A stretch of 64,000 bases of DNA from NCBI GenBank assembly GCA_019637075.1, contig JAHBWI010000003.1, positions 434,001 through 498,000 on the forward strand. The letters run 5' to 3'. A program made the position numbers and the translations under genes. The stretch comes from Nitrospiraceae bacterium (GTDB lineage Bacteria; Nitrospirota; Nitrospiria; Nitrospirales; Nitrospiraceae). Every line of letters begins with the position of its first letter. Position 1 is the first letter of the stretch. The notes beneath the pieces were generated by a model. The model saw only the letters and a program-made list of their open reading frames with translations. It ran no database searches and had not been told where the DNA came from. Positions 1,810-13,617 of the stretch are shown here, in pieces.

Positions 1810-3360
1810 ATGCGTTCATGTACTCTTGTCGTCACAGGACTCGTTGCCGTGCTGTCGGCTCTTGCGCCGGGCCAGCCGAAGGCCTTTGCGCAGACGGTCA
1901 CACCGTTTCAGCTTGTCGGGCATATCGAACAATTCTCGCTCGATAATCCCGCCGATAAGCTGACCGGGGCCAAGATGACCGTCAACGGCATCCAGGTTGT
2001 TCTGCCGAAGAACCTCGTGGTGCAACTGCCGGCCGCATACTTCACGCCGCAGCAGATCTTTGAGAAGGCCCAAGGTGTATCGAAGAAATACCATGAGTCC
2101 GGTCTGGCCTTGAGCGACAAGTTTCCGCCGCTGGCTGCGTTCGAAGCATCCATCGACGGCAATATTGTGGACGGCGTCTACCTCGCCGGCTTGGTCTCGA
2201 TTTCTCAGCAGGCATTGAACGTGGGCGCTGGGTTCATCCACCAGATTGATGTGACGACCGGGGTGATCTGCGTCGGCGCCAGCAAGACGGCGACGGTGTG
2301 TAGTGCCGGCGACACGCGAATCAGGCTCAACGATCCGGCCCTTGATGTATCCGATCCCTTTCCCGGAGACGGTCGCTATGGCTTGCCAAATCCTGCGCCG
2401 CCCGCAATCGGTGCCGACAATCCGGACTCCCGCTTTCCCGATCCGCGGTTCACGGTGGATCAGGGGAACCCGACCGTCCATGCCCTCACCGGATATCCCA
2501 TGTGCGTGCCCCGCTCACCCAGTGATAACGAATGTCCTGCCGCCAATCGGCCCGCCGAGGGGACGTTCGTCATGGACACAGTCGATCTTGTGCCACCGAC
2601 GAGATTCGGTGCCGATGTTATCAAGGCCTGTCCGGCTTGTGATGCGACGAAGCAGGCGCCTCTGAAAGTCGGAGACTATGTGACGTTCGGCGGTACGTTG
2701 GCCAATGGTGCGCAGGGACGTTTTGTTTCCGTGCACACGCTGGTGGTCAACGTCGGCATTTATACGAAGCCGGGCGGACGCGCCTATGTGACGTTGGAAG
2801 AATCGCTGCTCGGGACCAAAGGGCCCGTGGCACAGTGCGGTGCTGCAGCGGAATGTCAGGACCGTCTGAAGGTCGAAGGATTCACGACCGATCCGACCAG
2901 ATCCGTGAGCGTCTATGCCGTCGACGTAGCGCCCGGCGGGACACCGAAGACCCGTCTCCTGCACAGCACCGACAAAGTTCAGGCCGTCTTCGGTCGGTTC
3001 CGGTATACGCCGCCGCTCACGTCCGCAGCGTTATTCGATATCAATGGAGTCCTGAAGGGGGCGACCAGGGAACTGATGGTACGCATCGACAATCCAGGCC
3101 CGCTGCTCGACGGTAGTGATATTCCCGGTGGACCCAAATCGGCCCATGGTCTCACCGCCGGCATCTATGTCGCACCGGTGGGGGAGTACATCTTCCCTGA
3201 GCCGACAGGCGTTCAGGGTGGAGACCAGCCGGCGCTAAATTTTCAATGTCTGGCCTTTCTCGCTCAAGGATGGGCGCTGCCGGACAGCGGATTGCCGAAT
3301 ATCCCTCGGCTGACGCCTTGGCCGGGCAAGGCAGCGCCGCTCTTTTCCTGTACCGACTAG
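1810..3360 (+). CDS. Secreted protein of unknown function, first gene of the multicopper oxidase cluster
   Basis: The start at ATG 1810 is preferred over an upstream TTG because GGGGAGG precedes it and the product then begins with a clear signal peptide (MRSCTLVVTGLVAVLSALAPG...AFA). The mature protein has about 490 residues and several Cys that look paired (CVGASKTATVC, CPACDATKQAP, CGAAAEC), as expected for an exported, disulphide-bonded protein. No haem-binding CxxCH and no copper motif is present. It has no family I recognise. Its stop is 39 bases before the giant multicopper oxidase start, so the two are probably co-transcribed, and a periplasmic or outer-surface partner role for that oxidase is a reasonable inference. 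Confidence 0.75.
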   Translation: MRSCTLVVTGLVAVLSALAPGQPKAFAQTVTPFQLVGHIEQFSLDNPADKLTGAKMTVNGIQVVLPKNLVVQLPAAYFTPQQIFEKAQGVSKKYHESGLALSDKFPPLAAFEASIDGNIVDGVYLAGLVSISQQALNVGAGFIHQIDVTTGVICVGASKTATVCSAGDTRIRLNDPALDVSDPFPGDGRYGLPNPAPPAIGADNPDSRFPDPRFTVDQGNPTVHALTGYPMCVPRSPSDNECPAANRPAEGTFVMDTVDLVPPTRFGADVIKACPACDATKQAPLKVGDYVTFGGTLANGAQGRFVSVHTLVVNVGIYTKPGGRAYVTLEESLLGTKGPVAQCGAAAECQDRLKVEGFTTDPTRSVSVYAVDVAPGGTPKTRLLHSTDKVQAVFGRFRYTPPLTSAALFDINGVLKGATRELMVRIDNPGPLLDGSDIPGGPKSAHGLTAGIYVAPVGEYIFPEPTGVQGGDQPALNFQCLAFLAQGWALPDSGLPNIPRLTPWPGKAAPLFSCTD

Positions 3361-3399
3361 CATTCATTTCAAACCCATTAGGCTTTGGAGACTACGACG

Positions 3400-6300
3400 A
3401 TGCGAGTTGAGCGAGTCTGTCTACGGAAGGATTCCGGAGCGCCCTCACCGATGGCCGTGGGGCCTACGACACTATCCCGAGTGCGTTGGCGGGGCGGGCG
3501 GCCAAAAGCGCTCGGTACCATGGCGCTGGTGGGACTGATCAGCTTGGTGGGCGCCGGTTGTGTCACGCACCAGGCGCCTCAATCGCAGGTTGTGCACAAG
3601 CCTGTCTGCGAGCGGACGATCACCGCCGACGTCGTTGCGCTGGACCAGGTCTATTACTACAACCGGTTCGGATCCTTTAATCCCGCGGGCATCATGTATG
3701 CGTTGCGGAAAGATGTCGTCCTGGCCGATGAGCGCGATGCCGGAGGCGAGCGCAAGCATGAGCCCGAGAATAAGGAATTGGACCTGTTGAATGGAGACCT
3801 GGACCAGTGGCCCAACGAGGTCGAACAGGCGATCTCTTCCGAACCAGGCCCTGATGATCTTAAACTGGTCGGACGGGTGAAACTCCGTTCCGACAAACGT
3901 CCGCGGCCGCTGGTGCTGCGTGCCAATGAAGGGGACTGCCTGCAGGTCAGGATGACGAATCTGCTGGCGCCGAGCGCTGGTGGTCAGGAGCTGATGCTGG
4001 ATCCAGAGCGGCGATTGACCCATCCGGAGAAGCGCCTGGTGGTATCGAACGATGGGGATGAGCCTACGACCCGCCATGCCTCCATGCATGTCAATGGATT
4101 GAGCCTGGTGGATTCGATCGATTCGCTCGGCGCGAACGTCGGTAGAAACGGTTGGCACGATCAGTCGGGGAACAAGACGGACGGCCGCTGCTCCGCCGAT
4201 CCGGTCGATTTTGGGAAAGATTTGTGCGCGCTGGCCGCACCGGGCGAAACCCGCATCTACACGTGGTATGCGAAAAAGGAAGGCACCTACTTCTTCTATT
4301 CAATGGCCGCGCCTGCGGGAGGAGAGGGAGACGGCGGGCAGTTGGGACTGGGACTGTTCGGCGCGGTGAATGTTCAACCGCGCGGCGCGAACTGGTATCG
4401 GTCTCAGGTGGCGGAGTCGGACTTGAAGGCGGCAACCACCGGAACCACCACCTACGGCCAACCGATCATTGCCTATGAGGCTGTCTTTGCCAAGGGACCG
4501 CGCAAGGGCGATCCTATTTTAAACATGCTGAAGTGCCGGGATAAGGGTGCCGAAGGGGGCATGCAGGGCCGGGTGGCCTGTCCAAGCGGAGGCGAGCTCG
4601 TCTATTCAGATCTCAATGCCGTGGTCGACATCGAGAAGGAAGCGAGTTGCGAACAGATGGGAGAGGGAAATGCCTGCGGCTTGCCCTACCGCGAGTTTAC
4701 GGTCATTTTTCACGATGAGGTGACGGCGGTTCAGGCCTTCGACGATATTCGGCAGGAAGATGCTGCCTTGGCCTCGATCCGTGACGGTATGGGGATCAAC
4801 TACGGCGTCTCCGGGCTGGGGCCGATGGTCGTGGCGAATCGACAGAAGCTCGGGCCCGCGCGGGACTGTGCCGAGTGCAAGCTCGAGGAGTTCTTCCTGA
4901 CATCGTGGGTCAACGGCGACCCGGCGATGGTGGTGGGCTATGAGCGAAACGCTCAGGGAGACTTGATCAAAATCGGGGAAACGACGGTGAAGGGACGTGA
5001 TGGAAAGCCGGAACGGCGCCCGCTGTACAAGATGAAGGCCAAGTATCCGGATGATCCGTCCAATGTTCACCATTCCTACCTCGGTGATCCGATCCGGTTC
5101 CGAAATATGCATGCAGGTCCGAAGGAAACGCATGTGTTCCACTTGCATGCGCATCAGTGGGTCGAGGATAAGCACGATCCGCAGTCTCATTACTTGGACT
5201 CCCAGACGATCTCGCCCGGGACGGCATTCTCGTACGAGGTGCATTACGGGGGATCCGGCAACCGGAATCTCGGTCCCGGCGATTCGATTTTCCACTGCCA
5301 CCTCTATCCGCACTTTGCGCAGGGCATGTGGGAGCTATGGCGGGCCCATGACGTATTCGAGGATGGCAGCCGGTTACGGTGGTTGCCCGATCACGACATC
5401 GAGGAAGGCACGCCGACTCCGGCGGTCGTGCCTCTGCCCCGCACGCCGCTCGCGCCGATGCCGACAAAGGATTTCAAGGGGTATCCCTTCTACATTGCCG
5501 GCGAAAAGGGGCACCGTCCTCCGCAGCCGCCTCTGGATATCGAGGGCGAGGATCACGCCACGGCTTTGCGGCGGCACGTCGTGATGGACGGGGCGGTGCT
5601 TGATGGCTCTGAAGCGCATGGCCCGCAGGACATGAAGCAGGCTCCTCCGCAGAATCACGATCTCTTCGATCGTGGACGCCAGGCCTCGGCTGATATCGCC
5701 GCCCGCGTCTCCTCCCAGAACCGAAGCGAAGACCTGTCGGTGCTCGCACGCGAGCTGGAACGGGCTACCGTCAAGACCTATCCCAACCATGGGAATGAGC
5801 AGGAACAGGCGGCCATGCGGTTTCACGCCGGACAATCAATCGTGAACGGCGCTCCCGCCGTCAGGGTGGGGGCGGCAGGTTGGCAGCCGACTCCCTACAA
5901 TTGGGAAGCGCCCGGCTACAAGACCTGTCTGTCGGATGGCACCTGTGACAGTGAAGCGGGAACGCGGGTCCTGTTTCGCGTCAACGGTGGCGGCAACGTG
6001 GAGCTGCCCAATATCGGGAAAGGCGAGCCTGGGGCGCCGTTTTCCAATCCCTGTCCCAAACAGTGGATCGACGAATCAGGGAAGATCCGCGAGGTGAAAG
6101 TCCGTGAGTACCGTGCCGTCTACATTCAGATGGATATGACCGTCAACAAGTCCGGATGGCATGATCCTCAGGCGCGGTTCCCGGTGCTGGAAGAGGACGT
6201 CCAGGCGACTTTAGACGGGAAGCGCCCCACGGAGCCGCTGTTCTTCCGCGCGCAGTCGGGCGAATGTGTGGTGTTCAAAGCCACGAATCTCATTCCCAGC

Positions 6301-9300
6301 AACCTGAATCTGGACGATTTCCAGGTGTACTCGCCCACCGATACGATCGGACAGCACATTCATTTGGTGAAGTTCGACGTGACGTCGTCGGATGGCTCGG
6401 GGAACGGCTGGAACTATGAGGACGGCACGTTGGCGGCGGACGAAATTCGCGAGCGCATTCACGCGATCAGGGCTGCCAATCCCGCCACTCCCATCAAGCC
6501 GCACACGCACCGGCTGTTCTTGCGTAAAGGACAATTGGGCGCGACGGAAGACGGCGCGCTGGCAGGAGATAGCCGTGGATACTGCAGCGACATGGGCGGG
6601 AACGACAACGATCGCATCCGGCATCCCTGGTGCGGCGCCCAGACCACGATCCAGCGCTGGTGGGCCGACCCAGTATTAAACGCAAAGCCGGGTGACAAAC
6701 ATTCCCATGACCGGACTTTGCGGACCGTCTTCACCCATGACCATTTCGGACCGAGTTCGCACCAACACCACGGATTCTACGCGGCGCTCGTCGTGGAGCC
6801 TCGGAACTCGAAATGGTTTTTCCCTGATGGGCGATTGATGGGTGGGACGGATGCGCAGGGGAAACCCGAGAAGGTGGACGGGCGGCACGACGGTGGCCCC
6901 ACGTTTTACGCAGCAAATCTCATCGTCCGTGGCCAAGGCACGGCGTGCATCACCGAACAGAAAGACGGCCTGGTCTGCAGCGACCGGTTGGACCACAAGG
7001 ACACGATTGATGACAAGCGCACGGCAAGAGAGTTCAATCTGGCGTTTGCCGATTTTGCGATCGTCTATGACAGGGAAAATCAACCCATCAATCCGCCGAG
7101 CCAAATTGAGGGAGGACTGCGAACGCCGATCCTTCCAGGCCGGATTCCCGTGCCGGAAGGGATCTCGACGAAAGATCCGGGCACTCAGCTGATCAACTAT
7201 CGCAACGAGCCCATTCCTCTGCGGATTGCGACCAAGGCCTCTACCGGAAAAGAGTTTGTCCAACTATCGGAACAGAATGGCCGTGGTGACTTGGCCCACG
7301 TGTTCAGCTCCGTGGTGCACGACAAGCAATCCGTAGTAGACAGCAGCATTTTCACCGAGGGCACCGATGTGGGGCGCGAATCCGGCGATCCCGCAACGCC
7401 ACTTCTGCGGGCCTATGAAGGGGATCGCGTCCAGATTCGTTTGATCCAAGGCGCGCAGGAAGAGCAGCATGTCTTTACGATGCACGGCGCAAAATGGTTG
7501 GCTCAGCCTGATTCAACCAATACCGGCTATGTGAGCGCACAACATATCGGTATTTCGGAACACTTCGAGTTCAACGATCGGGTCGTCGAGTTCATGCCGT
7601 TCGACAAGGGCAACGGGAGCCGGAAAGTGGTCGATCACCTCTACGCATCCGGTGCGACCGACAATCTCTGGGATGGCCAATGGGGACTCATGCGGGTCTT
7701 CTCCCGCACCGAGTCCGCACCGGGATTGACCAGGCTGCCGGGAAATACGGAGCGGACGCACGACGTCCTGGCCTCCGCCTTTGTGCAGCAAGGGCTCGAT
7801 GAGACGCTCGACAGCGAGTTATTCGAGGTTGTCGATGGGGAAGCGTCGGAACGAACGGCGTCAGACTCGACCGATCTGGAGGAGCCGAAAGACGCATTGG
7901 AAGCCTTTTGCCGGTCGGCGGCACAACAGTCGTTCCAGCAGCACTACGAGGTGGAAGCCTGGCTGGCGAAAGACCTCTTGCCGGGCGGCAAGCTGGTCTA
8001 CAACGAACACTTCGGCATCGCCGATCCCAACGCCATTCTGTTCGTGGAGGCGTCGGAGGTGTCGGCATTGCGTTCGGGCGGGAAGCGGGCAGAGCCGCTG
8101 ATCCTGCGTGCACGGGCCGGTGACTGTATCCGTGTCACGCTGAAGAACATGATTCGCCCCGAGCATCATCTGGACGGCCCTGACAATTCGGAGAGCTGGA
8201 GTTACAACATGGTGCCGCCGATTGTTGCCGGATTTTCCTTCAATCAGGTTCGCTCCTCGCACCGGGTGGGCCTGCATCCTCAACTCGTGGATCACAGTAT
8301 CCAGACGAGTGACGGCGCCCATGTCGGTGTCAACGACGATTCCACGGTGGGACCCGGTGAGCCACGAAAGACCTACTACTGGTACGCCGGGGAAATTGCC
8401 GCCCGTCAGAAGGGTAAGAAAATCGTAGGCATCCCTTACGAGTTCGGAGCGATTCCGTTGCAGGACATGGGGGACGTCATCAAGCATGCGTCCCACGGGG
8501 CGATTGGGGCCTTGATCGTCGAACCGCAATGCTCGGAGTGGAAGGTAACCGGCTCTCGCAAGGACCAGGCGGAGGTCGACTATTGGAATGGGCAGCCGGT
8601 GCCTGGGCAGAGAGGAAAACGGAGACAACTTCTGGCTTGCCCGCCCAAGCCGGCCGAGGATTCGCGCAAGCTGTATCGGTTCAATGAAATGGTGCTGCTC
8701 TACCAGGACAACCTGAGCCTGCAGCAGTATGGCCAGCCGATCCCGAATTTGCGCAACGGCGACGATTCGGAAGATTCGGGGCAGAAAGCCTTCAATTACC
8801 GTACGGAACCCCTCTGGGCGAGGCTTGGGGCCAGCGCCGCAGATGAGCCGGATGCCATGAGCGAATTCGATTGGTCGAACGTGTTGAGCTCGACAGTTCC
8901 CCATTTCCGCTGCGATGCCAATCCGTCGAAGGGACGGTACTGCGATCCGGAGACACCGCTGTTCACAGCCAAGGCGGGAGATCATCTCCGGTTCCGCGTG
9001 GTCCATCCGGGCGGCCACCCGCGACAACATGGGTTCACCCTGTTCGGTCATGATTGGGGGCTCATTCCCTGGATCAATGACTCGAGAACGATGGGGTGGA
9101 ATCAGTTTAATCAGGCGCGGGTAGGTTCGACCGGCGGCATCGGGCCTGGCCGGGCCATCAATATCCTGACCGCGGCCGGCGGGGATTGTAAGGTTACAGG
9201 GGACTATCTCTACCGCACGCAGGAGGGCTTCATGTTCGGCGGGGGCCTGTGGGGCATTCTCCGAGTCGAAGAGAATCCCAGGCTCAGCTGGTGGGAACCA

Positions 9301-9396
9301 TCAGGCTGGTTCAGGAAGAAGCTCGTGAACAACGGAGACGAGGCCAGCAGCTGTAAGGTTGCCTTGTCCCAAGCCAAGTCCGGCGACCAGCCATGA
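3400..9396 (+). CDS. Giant multi-cupredoxin multicopper oxidase (MnxG/MofA-like size and motif order)
   Basis: The product is about 1998 residues from ATG 3400, with GGAG nine bases upstream. An N-terminal hydrophobic segment (MALVGLISLVGAGC) suggests export, possibly with a lipid anchor. Copper motifs are plain. HxxHxH is at residues 578-583 (HVFHLH). The type 1/trinuclear motif HCHxxxHxxxxM is at 632-643 (HCHLYPHFAQGM). Two further HxH pairs lie downstream at 986-988 (HIH) and 1113-1115 (HDH), the latter beside HQHH at 1121-1124. Later cupredoxin-like units carry HVFTMH (1357) and HGFTLFGH (1877). In ordinary laccases the two HxH motifs precede HxxHxH and HCH; here the order is reversed. 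This size and order recall bacterial Mn(II) oxidases, but the substrate is inferred, not shown. The stop overlaps the next gene by four bases. Confidence 0.88.
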   Translation: MRVERVCLRKDSGAPSPMAVGPTTLSRVRWRGGRPKALGTMALVGLISLVGAGCVTHQAPQSQVVHKPVCERTITADVVALDQVYYYNRFGSFNPAGIMYALRKDVVLADERDAGGERKHEPENKELDLLNGDLDQWPNEVEQAISSEPGPDDLKLVGRVKLRSDKRPRPLVLRANEGDCLQVRMTNLLAPSAGGQELMLDPERRLTHPEKRLVVSNDGDEPTTRHASMHVNGLSLVDSIDSLGANVGRNGWHDQSGNKTDGRCSADPVDFGKDLCALAAPGETRIYTWYAKKEGTYFFYSMAAPAGGEGDGGQLGLGLFGAVNVQPRGANWYRSQVAESDLKAATTGTTTYGQPIIAYEAVFAKGPRKGDPILNMLKCRDKGAEGGMQGRVACPSGGELVYSDLNAVVDIEKEASCEQMGEGNACGLPYREFTVIFHDEVTAVQAFDDIRQEDAALASIRDGMGINYGVSGLGPMVVANRQKLGPARDCAECKLEEFFLTSWVNGDPAMVVGYERNAQGDLIKIGETTVKGRDGKPERRPLYKMKAKYPDDPSNVHHSYLGDPIRFRNMHAGPKETHVFHLHAHQWVEDKHDPQSHYLDSQTISPGTAFSYEVHYGGSGNRNLGPGDSIFHCHLYPHFAQGMWELWRAHDVFEDGSRLRWLPDHDIEEGTPTPAVVPLPRTPLAPMPTKDFKGYPFYIAGEKGHRPPQPPLDIEGEDHATALRRHVVMDGAVLDGSEAHGPQDMKQAPPQNHDLFDRGRQASADIAARVSSQNRSEDLSVLARELERATVKTYPNHGNEQEQAAMRFHAGQSIVNGAPAVRVGAAGWQPTPYNWEAPGYKTCLSDGTCDSEAGTRVLFRVNGGGNVELPNIGKGEPGAPFSNPCPKQWIDESGKIREVKVREYRAVYIQMDMTVNKSGWHDPQARFPVLEEDVQATLDGKRPTEPLFFRAQSGECVVFKATNLIPSNLNLDDFQVYSPTDTIGQHIHLVKFDVTSSDGSGNGWNYEDGTLAADEIRERIHAIRAANPATPIKPHTHRLFLRKGQLGATEDGALAGDSRGYCSDMGGNDNDRIRHPWCGAQTTIQRWWADPVLNAKPGDKHSHDRTLRTVFTHDHFGPSSHQHHGFYAALVVEPRNSKWFFPDGRLMGGTDAQGKPEKVDGRHDGGPTFYAANLIVRGQGTACITEQKDGLVCSDRLDHKDTIDDKRTAREFNLAFADFAIVYDRENQPINPPSQIEGGLRTPILPGRIPVPEGISTKDPGTQLINYRNEPIPLRIATKASTGKEFVQLSEQNGRGDLAHVFSSVVHDKQSVVDSSIFTEGTDVGRESGDPATPLLRAYEGDRVQIRLIQGAQEEQHVFTMHGAKWLAQPDSTNTGYVSAQHIGISEHFEFNDRVVEFMPFDKGNGSRKVVDHLYASGATDNLWDGQWGLMRVFSRTESAPGLTRLPGNTERTHDVLASAFVQQGLDETLDSELFEVVDGEASERTASDSTDLEEPKDALEAFCRSAAQQSFQQHYEVEAWLAKDLLPGGKLVYNEHFGIADPNAILFVEASEVSALRSGGKRAEPLILRARAGDCIRVTLKNMIRPEHHLDGPDNSESWSYNMVPPIVAGFSFNQVRSSHRVGLHPQLVDHSIQTSDGAHVGVNDDSTVGPGEPRKTYYWYAGEIAARQKGKKIVGIPYEFGAIPLQDMGDVIKHASHGAIGALIVEPQCSEWKVTGSRKDQAEVDYWNGQPVPGQRGKRRQLLACPPKPAEDSRKLYRFNEMVLLYQDNLSLQQYGQPIPNLRNGDDSEDSGQKAFNYRTEPLWARLGASAADEPDAMSEFDWSNVLSSTVPHFRCDANPSKGRYCDPETPLFTAKAGDHLRFRVVHPGGHPRQHGFTLFGHDWGLIPWINDSRTMGWNQFNQARVGSTGGIGPGRAINILTAAGGDCKVTGDYLYRTQEGFMFGGGLWGILRVEENPRLSWWEPSGWFRKKLVNNGDEASSCKVALSQAKSGDQP

Positions 9397-11399
9397 GAAG
9401 AGCAGGAACATTGGTGTTCGGGCGGCGATGGCTGGGGCTGGTTCCCTTGGCGCTGATGCTTGTGACCACTCCGGTGTTCGGCGGAGAACCAGGAAGGGTT
9501 ACCCCCCCGGCGTCTCCGGAAAAAGATGGGAACGAAGTGCTGCAGCGTGTCGTGCAGAACGGCCTTGCGGTGGAGTTGCGTGTGACGCCGTTCGATGAGA
9601 CGGGAGACGGCCACGCTCCTTCTGCCGGTCGGCCAGCGATGGTCACACTCTCCCTCACGGACGCAAAATCCGGTGCGCCGGTTACCGGTGTCCGCCCCAG
9701 GGCCTGGATGACCAGCCGGCCCTCGGAGATGGTTTCCGACGAAGTGCCCTGCGCCGACAAGATCCGGCGGCTTCTCGGCGGTCGCTTGGGAGCCCGCGCC
9801 GACGTCGACATGAACCAATATGTGGTGTTGTCGTTGAATCATGACAAGACCATTTCCGTCATCAATCCGTTGGTGGAGTTCAGCCCCAGCAAGCTGGAAA
9901 GTCTGGTGCCGTTGCCTGGCACCGGGGCCGATTGGGTACTCACTGCCGATGGGACCCTGTTGTATGTGACGATGCCGGATGAGGCGGCAGTGGCAGTGGT
10001 GGACACCAGGAGTAGACGACTTGTCGCAACGGTTTCCACCGGCGCCGGGTCACGTCCTGGACGGATCGTGCTGCAGCCGGATGGGCGGCAGGTGTGGGTG
10101 GGATTGGACGGAACCGGGCAGGTGGCGGCATTGGACGCGGCGACGTCCGGCCTTGCAGCGGTCCTTTCGGTAGGCCAAGGGCTGCATGCGTTGGCGTTCA
10201 CCCCGGACAGCCGGCTCCTGTATGTGACGAACAGCCAGGATAACAGCGTGGCGGTGGTTGATGCTCAGACCAACAGAGTGACGAACTCGATTCCTGTTCC
10301 TGATACTCCGGTGGCATTGACCTACGCGGGCGCCGCCAAACGGATGTATGTCGCGTCGTTGAATGGCTCGGTCGTTACCGTGATCGATCCGGCCCGTCAA
10401 TCCGTCAGCAGAAACGTCGCTGTCCGGCCAGGCGTCGTGGCCGTGGCCGTGGAACCGCAGGGACGCTTCGTCTTTTCTGCCAACCAGATGACTAGCGACG
10501 TTTCGATCATCGACAGCGCCACCGACACGGTCGTGGCCCGTGTGCCGGTGGTAAAGGATCCCGATCAAATCGTGTTCACATCGCACTATGCTTATGTGCG
10601 TGGCATCGAATCGGAGAAGGTCAGTCTCATCGAATTGGGTGCCCTCCGTCAGGGGAACGCCACGCCGGTAGATCTTCAGATCGGACGACAGGCACCGAGT
10701 GTTGCACCTCAGGAGTTGGGTGTCTCGCCCATGATCGCGCCAACTCCGGACGGAAATGCGGTGATGGTGGCCAATGCGCCGGATGCGACACTCTACTATT
10801 ATCAGGAAGGCATGATGGCCCCGATGGGGGCCTTCTCAAACTACCGACGAATGCCGCGAGGAATTGTGATGCTCGATCGCAGCCTCAAGGAGGTCGCCCC
10901 GGGAACCTATCGGGTGCCGGTCACCTTTCCGAAAGGGGGCCGTTTTGACGTGCCGCTGTTGCTGGAGCAGCCGCGTCTCTCCCATTGTTTTCAGGTGACG
11001 GTGCAGGAATCGCCTGGACAGACATTGTCTTCGGCCTCACGCCGCCCGCCGACCGTGCAGGCGTTGCCGGGGGAGGTCCCAGTTACGGCGAAACAGCCGA
11101 CCGCATTGTTGTTCAAACTTCTCGATCCCTCGACGTCGCTGCCCATCATGGGACTCACGGATGTGCAAGTGCTCCTCGTCGAACCTCCGGGTGTCTGGCA
11201 GCAACGGCATTGGGCGAAGGAACTCGAGGGCGGCACCTATTCCGTGACCTCGTCCTTTCCACACGCCGGGGACTTTACGGTGATGGTGCAAGCCCCCTCG
11301 CGACATCTTCGGTTCACCGATGGGACACCTACGGTCGTGGCAGTCGGACCGGCTCAGTCGCGCTCGGAAGTCGGGACGAAGGCTGCGGGAAGGCACTGA
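9393..11399 (+). CDS. Secreted YVTN/YncE-type beta-propeller protein with flanking Ig-like domains
   Basis: The ATG overlaps the oxidase stop (ATGA), so translation is coupled. A signal peptide (LGLVPLALMLVTTPVFGG) is followed by a small beta-sandwich-like domain at about residues 45-110. A seven-bladed-type propeller covers about 130-430, with repeated phrases such as LYVTMPDEAAVAVVDTRS, LYVTNSQDNSVAVVDAQTN and MYVASLNGSVVTVIDPA. A second sandwich domain at about 560-660 (SLPIMGLTDVQVLLVEPPG...GDFTVMV) resembles YtkA/FixH-like domains. No haem motif is present. Such propellers are usually extracytoplasmic binding or scaffolding modules. Given the coupling, it probably works with the multicopper oxidase. 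Domain limits are by eye. Confidence 0.8.
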   Translation: MRRAGTLVFGRRWLGLVPLALMLVTTPVFGGEPGRVTPPASPEKDGNEVLQRVVQNGLAVELRVTPFDETGDGHAPSAGRPAMVTLSLTDAKSGAPVTGVRPRAWMTSRPSEMVSDEVPCADKIRRLLGGRLGARADVDMNQYVVLSLNHDKTISVINPLVEFSPSKLESLVPLPGTGADWVLTADGTLLYVTMPDEAAVAVVDTRSRRLVATVSTGAGSRPGRIVLQPDGRQVWVGLDGTGQVAALDAATSGLAAVLSVGQGLHALAFTPDSRLLYVTNSQDNSVAVVDAQTNRVTNSIPVPDTPVALTYAGAAKRMYVASLNGSVVTVIDPARQSVSRNVAVRPGVVAVAVEPQGRFVFSANQMTSDVSIIDSATDTVVARVPVVKDPDQIVFTSHYAYVRGIESEKVSLIELGALRQGNATPVDLQIGRQAPSVAPQELGVSPMIAPTPDGNAVMVANAPDATLYYYQEGMMAPMGAFSNYRRMPRGIVMLDRSLKEVAPGTYRVPVTFPKGGRFDVPLLLEQPRLSHCFQVTVQESPGQTLSSASRRPPTVQALPGEVPVTAKQPTALLFKLLDPSTSLPIMGLTDVQVLLVEPPGVWQQRHWAKELEGGTYSVTSSFPHAGDFTVMVQAPSRHLRFTDGTPTVVAVGPAQSRSEVGTKAAGRH

Positions 11400-11411
11400 G
11401 GAAGGGTGGAA

Positions 11412-11993
11412 ATGAGAGGGATAGCAGGTCTGATCACGGCGGCGTTTTCGTTGGCCATGCTCGCGCCGTCGATTGCGCTCGCAGATTCGGCGGCGCCGGT
11501 GATCCCGGATGTGGAGGTGTTGGACGAGACCGGAACTTCGCATCGGTTCTACAGCGATTTGATCAAGGGCAAGACCGTCGCAATCAATTTTGTCTACACT
11601 GCGTGCGCGTCCAGTTGCCCTGCCTCCGCCGCATTGTTCAACGGAGTGCAACACCGATTGCGTACACAACCCGAGCGGGCCGTGAGTCTTCTGTCGGTCA
11701 GCATTGATCCGACTACCGATCGTCCGGCTCAACTCCAGGCCTATGCCGAAAAGTTCGGTCGCGGAGCGGGATGGACGTTCGTCACCGGATCCAAGCGCGA
11801 GATCGATCGGTTGCTGGCGGCATTTGGTCTCACTGCATCCGACAAGGTCGATCACCCTGCGTTGATCGTGGTCGGCAATGACGCCTCGGGTGTGTGGACG
11901 CGCTTATATGGACAGGCATCTGTGCCGATGGTGATGGAAGCCTTGGCTGCGGCTTCCGCGGTGCCGGCATCCGCAGCGTCACCGCTTCCCTAG
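11412..11993 (+). CDS. SCO1/SenC-family copper chaperone or thiol-disulphide protein
   Basis: From ATG 11412 the product has 193 residues with a signal peptide (LITAAFSLAMLAPSIALA). The thioredoxin-like fold shows the SCO copper site: Cys65-x3-Cys69-Pro (CASSCP) and a distal His148 (VDHPALIVV), the three ligands that bind Cu in Sco1. SCO proteins deliver copper to the CuA site of cytochrome oxidase or to other periplasmic copper enzymes. No oxidase subunit is encoded nearby, whereas the giant multicopper oxidase lies two genes upstream on the same strand, so that is the likely client. The gene follows the propeller gene by 12 bases. Confidence 0.85.
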   Translation: MRGIAGLITAAFSLAMLAPSIALADSAAPVIPDVEVLDETGTSHRFYSDLIKGKTVAINFVYTACASSCPASAALFNGVQHRLRTQPERAVSLLSVSIDPTTDRPAQLQAYAEKFGRGAGWTFVTGSKREIDRLLAAFGLTASDKVDHPALIVVGNDASGVWTRLYGQASVPMVMEALAAASAVPASAASPLP

Positions 11994-12003
11994 TCCTTCG
12001 CGC

Positions 12004-13617
12004 ATGATCCGTATCATGGCATCTTCCGTACACCTCCTGTCTCGGCTGGCACTTCTCATACTTATGGTGCTGACGGTTTCTGCGTCGGCCCTTGCCTGGA
12101 CGGATCCGCTGACGCCGGGCGCGCGCGCGGGGCGGATGATCTACCAGCGTGGCGCAGGGGAGGAAATGGACCCCATCGAGGCGCAAAGTCAGGAATCGGA
12201 TGTCTGGCTTCCGGCAACGCTCTTTCGCTGTGCCCAATGTCATGGGGCGAGGGGGGAAGGAAGTCAAGAAGGGGGCCTGAGGGTTCCACCATTAACCCCG
12301 GCTGTCCTGCGCTCGTCGGACTCAGGTCCCGGTCGCAGGCGCAGACCCTATACGGACGAAACGTTGTTGCGTGCCATCACAGAAGGACGTGACGCGTCGG
12401 GCAACCGGTTGCAGCCTGCCATGCCGCGCTACCGCATGACGACGGCTCAATCCACAGCCTTGCTCGCCTACATGCGAGAGCTTGGGGGGGACGCCGACGT
12501 CGACCCCGGCATTGCCTCGGATTCAATCACGGTCGGAGCCGCCCTGCCGCGTTCAGGCCCGCTGGCTCAGATCGGCCGAGATGTCAGCGCAACCCTGGCC
12601 GGTTTGTTTGCCTCGATGAATGACCGGGGCGGTATCTATGGGCGTCGGGTGATCTTCGTCACCGAAGATTCGCAGGGCGAGCCCAACGGGACTGTCGAGG
12701 CGACCCGTCTGCTCGTCGAGAGAGATAAGGTGTTCGCACTCGTGGGGAATTTCAGCCCGTCCGGAGATGAAAGGACGGGCGCATTTCTGCAACAACAACA
12801 GGTCCCTTTGATCGGACCCCTGGCACTCTCACCAAAAATCTCCGATCCACCCAATCCCTATGTGTTCTATTCACTGCCGGGATTTGCTCTCCAATTTCGC
12901 GTTCTGATTGACCTGCTTGCGGGTCGCGCGTCGGAACTCGTCGGGAGCGCACAGCCGCGCGTCGCGGTCATTCATGCGCAGGCCTCAGTCAATGACGAGA
13001 CGCACCAGAGCGCTCTAGCGCAAGCAGCCCGTCATGGTTTGACGGTCGTGCTGAATGAGGGCTATCCAATCGGCAGACTGGCGGTTCAGCCGCTCGTTAC
13101 CCAGATCAAGGTACAGCGGGTCGACGCGATTCTATGGATAGGCGAAGGCGAAGATCTGCTTGTGCTGGCTCGGGCATTGGCCAGGGAGCGGATATTTCCC
13201 ATCCTGTTCGGCGCGGTCGGCATGGTGGGAGGCCGCGTGGCGCAGCTGCCGCCGGAGTTCCGGTCAAAGGTCTACCTGGCAACCGGCTTACCCCCTCCGA
13301 CAGCTAAAGACATTGCGAGACTGGCAGCCCTGACAGGGCAGGACACTCTTGCCAGCGTGGGATATGCCCGGATGGCCCAAATTGCCGGGGTCGCATTTCT
13401 GGAAGCTCTCAAGCGGGCAGGGCGTGACCTGAGCCGGCTGGCCCTGATCGGTTCGCTTGAGACCTTCGCCAACCAGGACGAGGGGGCGGGGATTCCTCTG
13501 TCATTCGGACCGGGGCGTCGATTGGGGCATGATCGGGTATTGGTACTGGGTTTTTCAGATGATCCTCCCATGGCCGTTCCTTATAGTGACTGGACTGCTC
13601 CGAAATCGCGGCCGTAG
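12004..13617 (+). CDS. Fusion of a c-type cytochrome domain and an amino-acid-type periplasmic binding protein
   Basis: The 537-residue product has a signal peptide (RLALLILMVLTVSASALA). A mono-haem cytochrome c domain covers about residues 40-165, with Cys76-x-x-Cys79-His80 (CAQCHG) and a candidate sixth ligand at Met140 or Met145 (PAMPRYRM). From about residue 175 the sequence becomes a class I periplasmic binding fold of the LivK/Peripla_BP_6 type (ITVGAALPRSGPLAQIG, NDRGGIYGRRVIFVTED, FALVGNFSPSG). No ABC permease or ATPase is near, so the binding domain is more likely a redox partner or sensor than a transport component. It follows the SCO gene by 10 bases and ends the oxidase cluster. 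The haem domain is certain; ligand and partner are not. Confidence 0.85.
   Translation: MIRIMASSVHLLSRLALLILMVLTVSASALAWTDPLTPGARAGRMIYQRGAGEEMDPIEAQSQESDVWLPATLFRCAQCHGARGEGSQEGGLRVPPLTPAVLRSSDSGPGRRRRPYTDETLLRAITEGRDASGNRLQPAMPRYRMTTAQSTALLAYMRELGGDADVDPGIASDSITVGAALPRSGPLAQIGRDVSATLAGLFASMNDRGGIYGRRVIFVTEDSQGEPNGTVEATRLLVERDKVFALVGNFSPSGDERTGAFLQQQQVPLIGPLALSPKISDPPNPYVFYSLPGFALQFRVLIDLLAGRASELVGSAQPRVAVIHAQASVNDETHQSALAQAARHGLTVVLNEGYPIGRLAVQPLVTQIKVQRVDAILWIGEGEDLLVLARALARERIFPILFGAVGMVGGRVAQLPPEFRSKVYLATGLPPPTAKDIARLAALTGQDTLASVGYARMAQIAGVAFLEALKRAGRDLSRLALIGSLETFANQDEGAGIPLSFGPGRRLGHDRVLVLGFSDDPPMAVPYSDWTAPKSRP

Follow-up and report, generated by a model that had tools for sequence, protein, structure and literature searches.

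The locus lies within a 64-kb window (the whole stretch of DNA analysed here) of a Nitrospiraceae genome and comprises five genes arranged head to tail in the order P0002-P0001-P0003-P0004-P0005, with 39 bp between the first two, P0003 overlapping the stop of P0001 by 4 bp, and 6 and 10 bp separating the remaining pairs (Table 1). The second of these, P0001, has a stop-free translation of 1,998 aa, matching the size of about 1998 residues given in a preliminary description of this DNA, and an alternative TTG start at 3385 would extend it by five codons. A hydrophobic N-terminus with a Cys is common to P0001 and its Nitrospira orthologues, and P0001 is a probable lipoprotein via Cys54. GC content of the five operon genes (60–62%) is near that of the window (59%), and there is therefore no compositional support for recent acquisition; a recent foreign cassette was considered and rejected. 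A scan for promoters and terminators gave nothing above chance.

Table 1 Genes and predicted copper-site features of the P0001 operon (positions within the window).
Feature	Position	Strand	Assignment or remark
P0002, exported beta-rich protein, 516 aa from ATG 1810	1810..3360	+	Without known family
P0001, MnxG-like giant multicopper oxidase, 1,998 aa	3400..9396	+	NF041487; 9bxa sequence and fold matches
CxxC, Cys490-Cys493 of P0001	4867..4878	+	Family conservation 99%
Motif C HxxHxH, HVFHLH, residues 578-583	5131..5148	+	Type 1 His578, trinuclear His581/His583 (predicted)
Motif D HCHxxxH, HCHLYPH, residues 632-638	5293..5313	+	Trinuclear His632/His634, type 1 Cys633/His638 (predicted)
Motif A HIH, residues 986-988	6355..6363	+	
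Motif B HDH, residues 1113-1115	6736..6744	+	
P0003, YVTN-type beta-propeller, lactonase-like	9393..11399	+	TIGR02276, PF21783
P0004, SCO1/SenC copper chaperone, CxxxC (67-71) + His150	11406..11993	+	PF02630, E 2e-18
P0005, one-haem cytochrome c (CAQCH at 76) + LivK-type periplasmic binding domain	12004..13617	+	PF00034, PF13458

The copper motifs of P0001 follow the order C-D-A-B, the HxxHxH and HCHxxxH motifs preceding the two HxH motifs at exactly the residues previously reported, and Met643 occupies the axial position after motif D. All 12 predicted copper-site residues (H578, H581, H583, H632, C633, H634, H638, M643, H986, H988, H1113 and H1115) are kept in every one of the 87 aligned family members; the same residues are present in one Bacillus-type MnxG and three paralogues; judged by sequence, the motifs are not chance matches. 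Six cupredoxin-type anchors were located (residues ~178, 562, 954, 1341, 1574 and 1860), with full copper motifs in units 2 and 3 only, which bears out the earlier suggestion of extra cupredoxin-like units lacking a full motif. Three-domain laccases (~500 aa) carry the four motifs in the order A-B-C-D, which P0001 does not match. The C-D-A-B order was found in each full-length relative examined and is shared by Bacillus SG-1 mnxG, in which the primer for region D sits upstream of that for region B (PMC3039467), and the permuted order is therefore regarded as a signature of the MnxG-like family.

No Pfam-A family was found for P0001. The NCBIfam MnxG model NF041487 matched with an E-value of 1.1e-269, but the score of 897.9 bits is far below the equivalog cut-off of 3,100 bits, which counts against an Mn-oxidase reading. 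Among solved structures, Bacillus MnxG (9bxa) was the sole strong sequence match (E 1.3e-110); the alignment takes in the four motif regions, and phmmer segments cover most of MnxG; the delineation of units 1 and 4–6 rests on sequence. Two-domain laccases also gave sequence matches over motifs C/D. An AlphaFold2 model limited to residues 425-1150 (units 2-3) and built from 79 sequences had a pLDDT of 84 and a pTM of 0.89, and its top Foldseek match was again 9bxa (E 6.8e-29, 719 columns, TM 0.50, rmsd 5.6), with both predicted motif-bearing domains falling within one alignment. The alanine at a type 1 His position in 9bxa was considered as a natural loss, an explanation rejected since the entry gives it as the H340A mutation. 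Ceruloplasmin, ranked second, and ascorbate oxidase followed at ~2e-8, some 20 orders of magnitude weaker. Ordinary multicopper oxidases (MCOs) hold the trinuclear site between their first and last domains; in P0001, unit 3 comes immediately after unit 2, so that by analogy the two predicted halves of the site can meet. The sequence and fold matches, the full set of copper ligands and the make-up of the operon together thus support P0001 as an MnxG-like six-cupredoxin multicopper oxidase at the superfamily level, without MnxG equivalog status. The MnxG-type link made in the preliminary description stands on these grounds; the permuted order that it singled out is no peculiarity of P0001, being standard throughout the MnxG-like family (PMC3039467).

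The operon context of P0001 is widely conserved. The propeller gene is kept beside the MCO, and the order MCO/YVTN/SCO/cytochrome-LivK is retained at numerous loci of Nitrospirota, Acidobacteriota, Myxococcota and Alphaproteobacteria, as well as at gammaproteobacterial loci whose MCO reaches up to 2,414 bits against the MnxG model. The fusion of a cytochrome c with a LivK-type domain, as in P0005, is kept with the MCO in many phyla. P0002 has no Pfam or NCBIfam match, and its AlphaFold2 model (pLDDT 81) returned no significant PDB fold match. Good homologues of P0002 occur solely at loci of the P0001 subclade, across Nitrospirota and Proteobacteria, and weak matches (25–29%) were detected at L080, L089, L106 and L120; P0002 is thus all but confined to the neighbourhood of this MCO subfamily. 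Genes similar to mnxE or mnxF were not found in the 64-kb window by tblastn with two small genes upstream of a Priestia mnxG-like gene. The latter is a full MnxG-like gene on a Priestia megaterium plasmid (NZ_CP085418.1; L184:3820-8147; 1,705 bits to 9bxa) that is annotated merely as a multicopper oxidase domain protein, and the two small genes preceding it lie where mnxE/mnxF would be expected.

Two phylogenetic trees placed P0001 within a Nitrospira clade and not with non-oxidase cupredoxin scaffolds, the placement that the preliminary description had named as grounds for refutation. Nearest to this clade were sequences from Nitrosomonas, Acetobacteraceae, Hyphomicrobiales, a second Nitrospira lineage and a Methylococcaceae MAG labelled 'Mn'. 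Gammaproteobacterial MnxG-type, Sphaerotilus and Bacillus-type MnxG sequences all branch apart from P0001, which weighs against the Mn reading; the Bacillus-type sequence sits on a long branch of uncertain position. The Pseudomonas-type clade was represented by gammaproteobacterial proxies (L147-L150) in place of the P. putida sequence itself; L147-L149 scored 2,183-2,414 bits against the MnxG model and L150, which is fragmented, scored lower; P0001 is not monophyletic with the clade so represented. No Pseudomonas MnxG above the cut-off was found in 369 genomes of the class to which a Methylococcaceae genome belongs. In Nitrospirota, 30 of the 396 sampled genomes contained a match at E <= 1e-20, and the gene is therefore patchy; the patchiness of the tree points to older transfers. 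The MnxG-like family is widely present in soil bacteria, its broad distribution takes in myxobacteria and Acidobacteriota, and many of its members belong to heterotrophs for which no Mn oxidation is known to us, a further point against an Mn oxidase. MnxG-like genes were also observed in archaea of the genus Methanoperedens and in Jettenia, an anammox bacterium (L079, L094 and L095); both are usually considered anaerobic, a strange setting for an enzyme that reduces O2. A search for AMO in the source genome returned no match, but its positive control likewise gave none, so that this negative does not bear on the comammox status of the genome.

The source genome encodes three further giant permuted MCOs of 1,606, 1,688 and 1,656 aa (L043, L044 and L045; contigs C2 and C10), all with the permuted order and all copper ligands; a related 931-aa reading frame without HCHxxxH was also observed. 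Almost all of the sampled Nitrospirales carry relatives of ~1,606-1,688 aa, frequently as multiple copies, and these are much commoner than the P0001 family. They form a separate clade, with local similarity only (~22-36%) to P0001. E440, C490, C493, D651 and E1354, which are common to P0001 and Bacillus-type MnxG, are altered or absent in these ~1,650-aa paralogues, which lack the CxxC pair. Nitrospira thus contains two giant permuted MCO families, and 'MnxG' annotations in nitrifier genomes must therefore tell them apart.

Taken together, we consider P0001 to be probably an MnxG-like outer-envelope metal oxidase, with Mn(II) as the most likely substrate and electrons delivered directly to O2, belonging to a distinct Nitrospira/Nitrosomonas/alphaproteobacterial subfamily. 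P0001 would be exported and anchored as a lipoprotein in the outer envelope, with the SCO protein P0004 presumably assisting copper loading. The metal would be oxidised in one-electron steps close to the type 1 copper in unit 2; Mn(II) is proposed as the substrate because of the nearest characterised relatives and the operon. Given established MCO chemistry and the intact ligands, electrons would then pass via His-Cys-His to a trinuclear cluster at the interface of units 2 and 3, where O2 would be reduced to water by four electrons, and Mn(III/IV) oxide would be deposited outside the cell. The P0003 propeller and the P0005 cytochrome/LivK fusion may serve as conserved accessories. Any physiological benefit of metal oxidation is likewise presumptive. 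The nitrifier families discussed in PMC11995701 still lack a demonstration of Mn oxidation, and MCO substrates are promiscuous (PMC11995701), both of which temper the Mn reading, as does the requirement of Bacillus MnxG for MnxE/MnxF (PMC5622069).

Substrate promiscuity also provides grounds for considering that an oxidase of the same MnxG fold acts physiologically on Fe(II), Cu(I) or another metal, in an envelope detoxification role resembling that of ceruloplasmin, Fet3p or CueO. The second rank of ceruloplasmin in the fold search, the SCO chaperone in the operon, the wide carriage of the family by soil bacteria and the position of P0001 outside the MnxG equivalog are all consistent with such a role, but the closest relatives by structure and operon context are Mn oxidases, and we regard a metal other than Mn as unlikely, albeit the most credible of the alternatives. 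That the same fold instead serves a laccase-like oxidation of organic compounds such as phenols and humics appears improbable: the two-domain laccase matches over motifs C/D and the broad distribution, myxobacteria and Acidobacteriota included, would fit, but the whole-protein match is to MnxG and the motif order is not that of three-domain laccases. We know of no laccase encoded in a lipoprotein/SCO/cytochrome operon.

The preliminary description further proposed an extra energy capacity, for which we find no support. Since the trinuclear site is intact, electrons are expected to reach O2 on the enzyme itself and energy conservation is not expected; moreover, MCO-catalysed Mn oxidation is viewed as having no clear energy-conserving path (PMC9040806). 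It is correspondingly very improbable that electrons taken by P0001 from Mn(II), or from some other metal, enter the respiratory chain by way of the P0005 cytochrome c with conservation of energy. Retention of the one-haem cytochrome c/binding-domain fusion in the operon at many loci, together with Mn chemolithoautotrophy elsewhere in Nitrospirota (PMC9040806), speaks for such a route, but soil heterotrophs carry the operon too. Because the P0005 cytochrome c is conserved, we retain at a similarly low probability a variant in which the MCO, P0002 and the cytochrome c/LivK protein might act together as an electron conduit in the envelope and so provide nitrifiers with a second route of metal oxidation that may yield energy.

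Parts of this picture are already known, namely the permuted motif order and the presence of MnxG in Nitrospira MAGs, reported in 2025 from a sand-filter inoculum (PMC12070406). Putative MnxG, McoA and MoxA, whose function is still to be verified, have been described for further nitrifiers (PMC11995701). New here are the demonstration of complete ligands, the separate subfamily position, the conserved operon and the dedicated partner P0002. In rapid sand filters, ammonium is removed along with manganese; Nitrospira coincides with Mn removal in such filters and has been put forward as a missing Mn oxidiser (PMC12070406). With its intact ligands and conserved operon, the complete MnxG-type gene described here offers a concrete candidate for expression and assay, for which the accessory genes to be included are now known.

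Among named Mn oxidases, MnxG of Bacillus sp. PL-12 (9bxa, Mnx H340A complex) resembles P0001 in fold, C-D-A-B order, ligands and the CxxC at 490/493, and has six cupredoxin units, a number that the sequence anchors suggest for P0001 too. It is shorter (1,227 aa versus 1,998), shares 24% identity in the Foldseek alignment and works with MnxE/MnxF, of which no homologue was found in the window. MofA of Leptothrix discophora and McoA of P. putida, compared by description, are like P0001 giant MCOs tied to Mn oxidation. A gene for cytochrome c belongs to the mof operon (PMC8218464), in which MofA is accompanied by mofB and mofC (cytochrome c). The P0001 operon carries its cytochrome c domain within P0005 and has no mofB-type isomerase. 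Neither an isomerase nor a cytochrome domain of the mofB/mofC type was found among the scanned neighbours of two Sphaerotilus MCO genes. MnxG of P. putida GB-1 (PputGB1_2447; NF041487), likened to P0001 by description, is near to it in size at 1,944 aa (PMC3600357), and a GB-1 mnxG/mcoA double knockout forms no Mn oxide (PMC11930936). No P0002-type partner is described in GB-1. Its mnxG operon comprises ABC, beta-propeller lactonase, mnxG, SCO and SurA genes, and the P0001 operon, with its beta-propeller, SCO and ABC/LivK-type genes, matches this operon type (PMC8218464).
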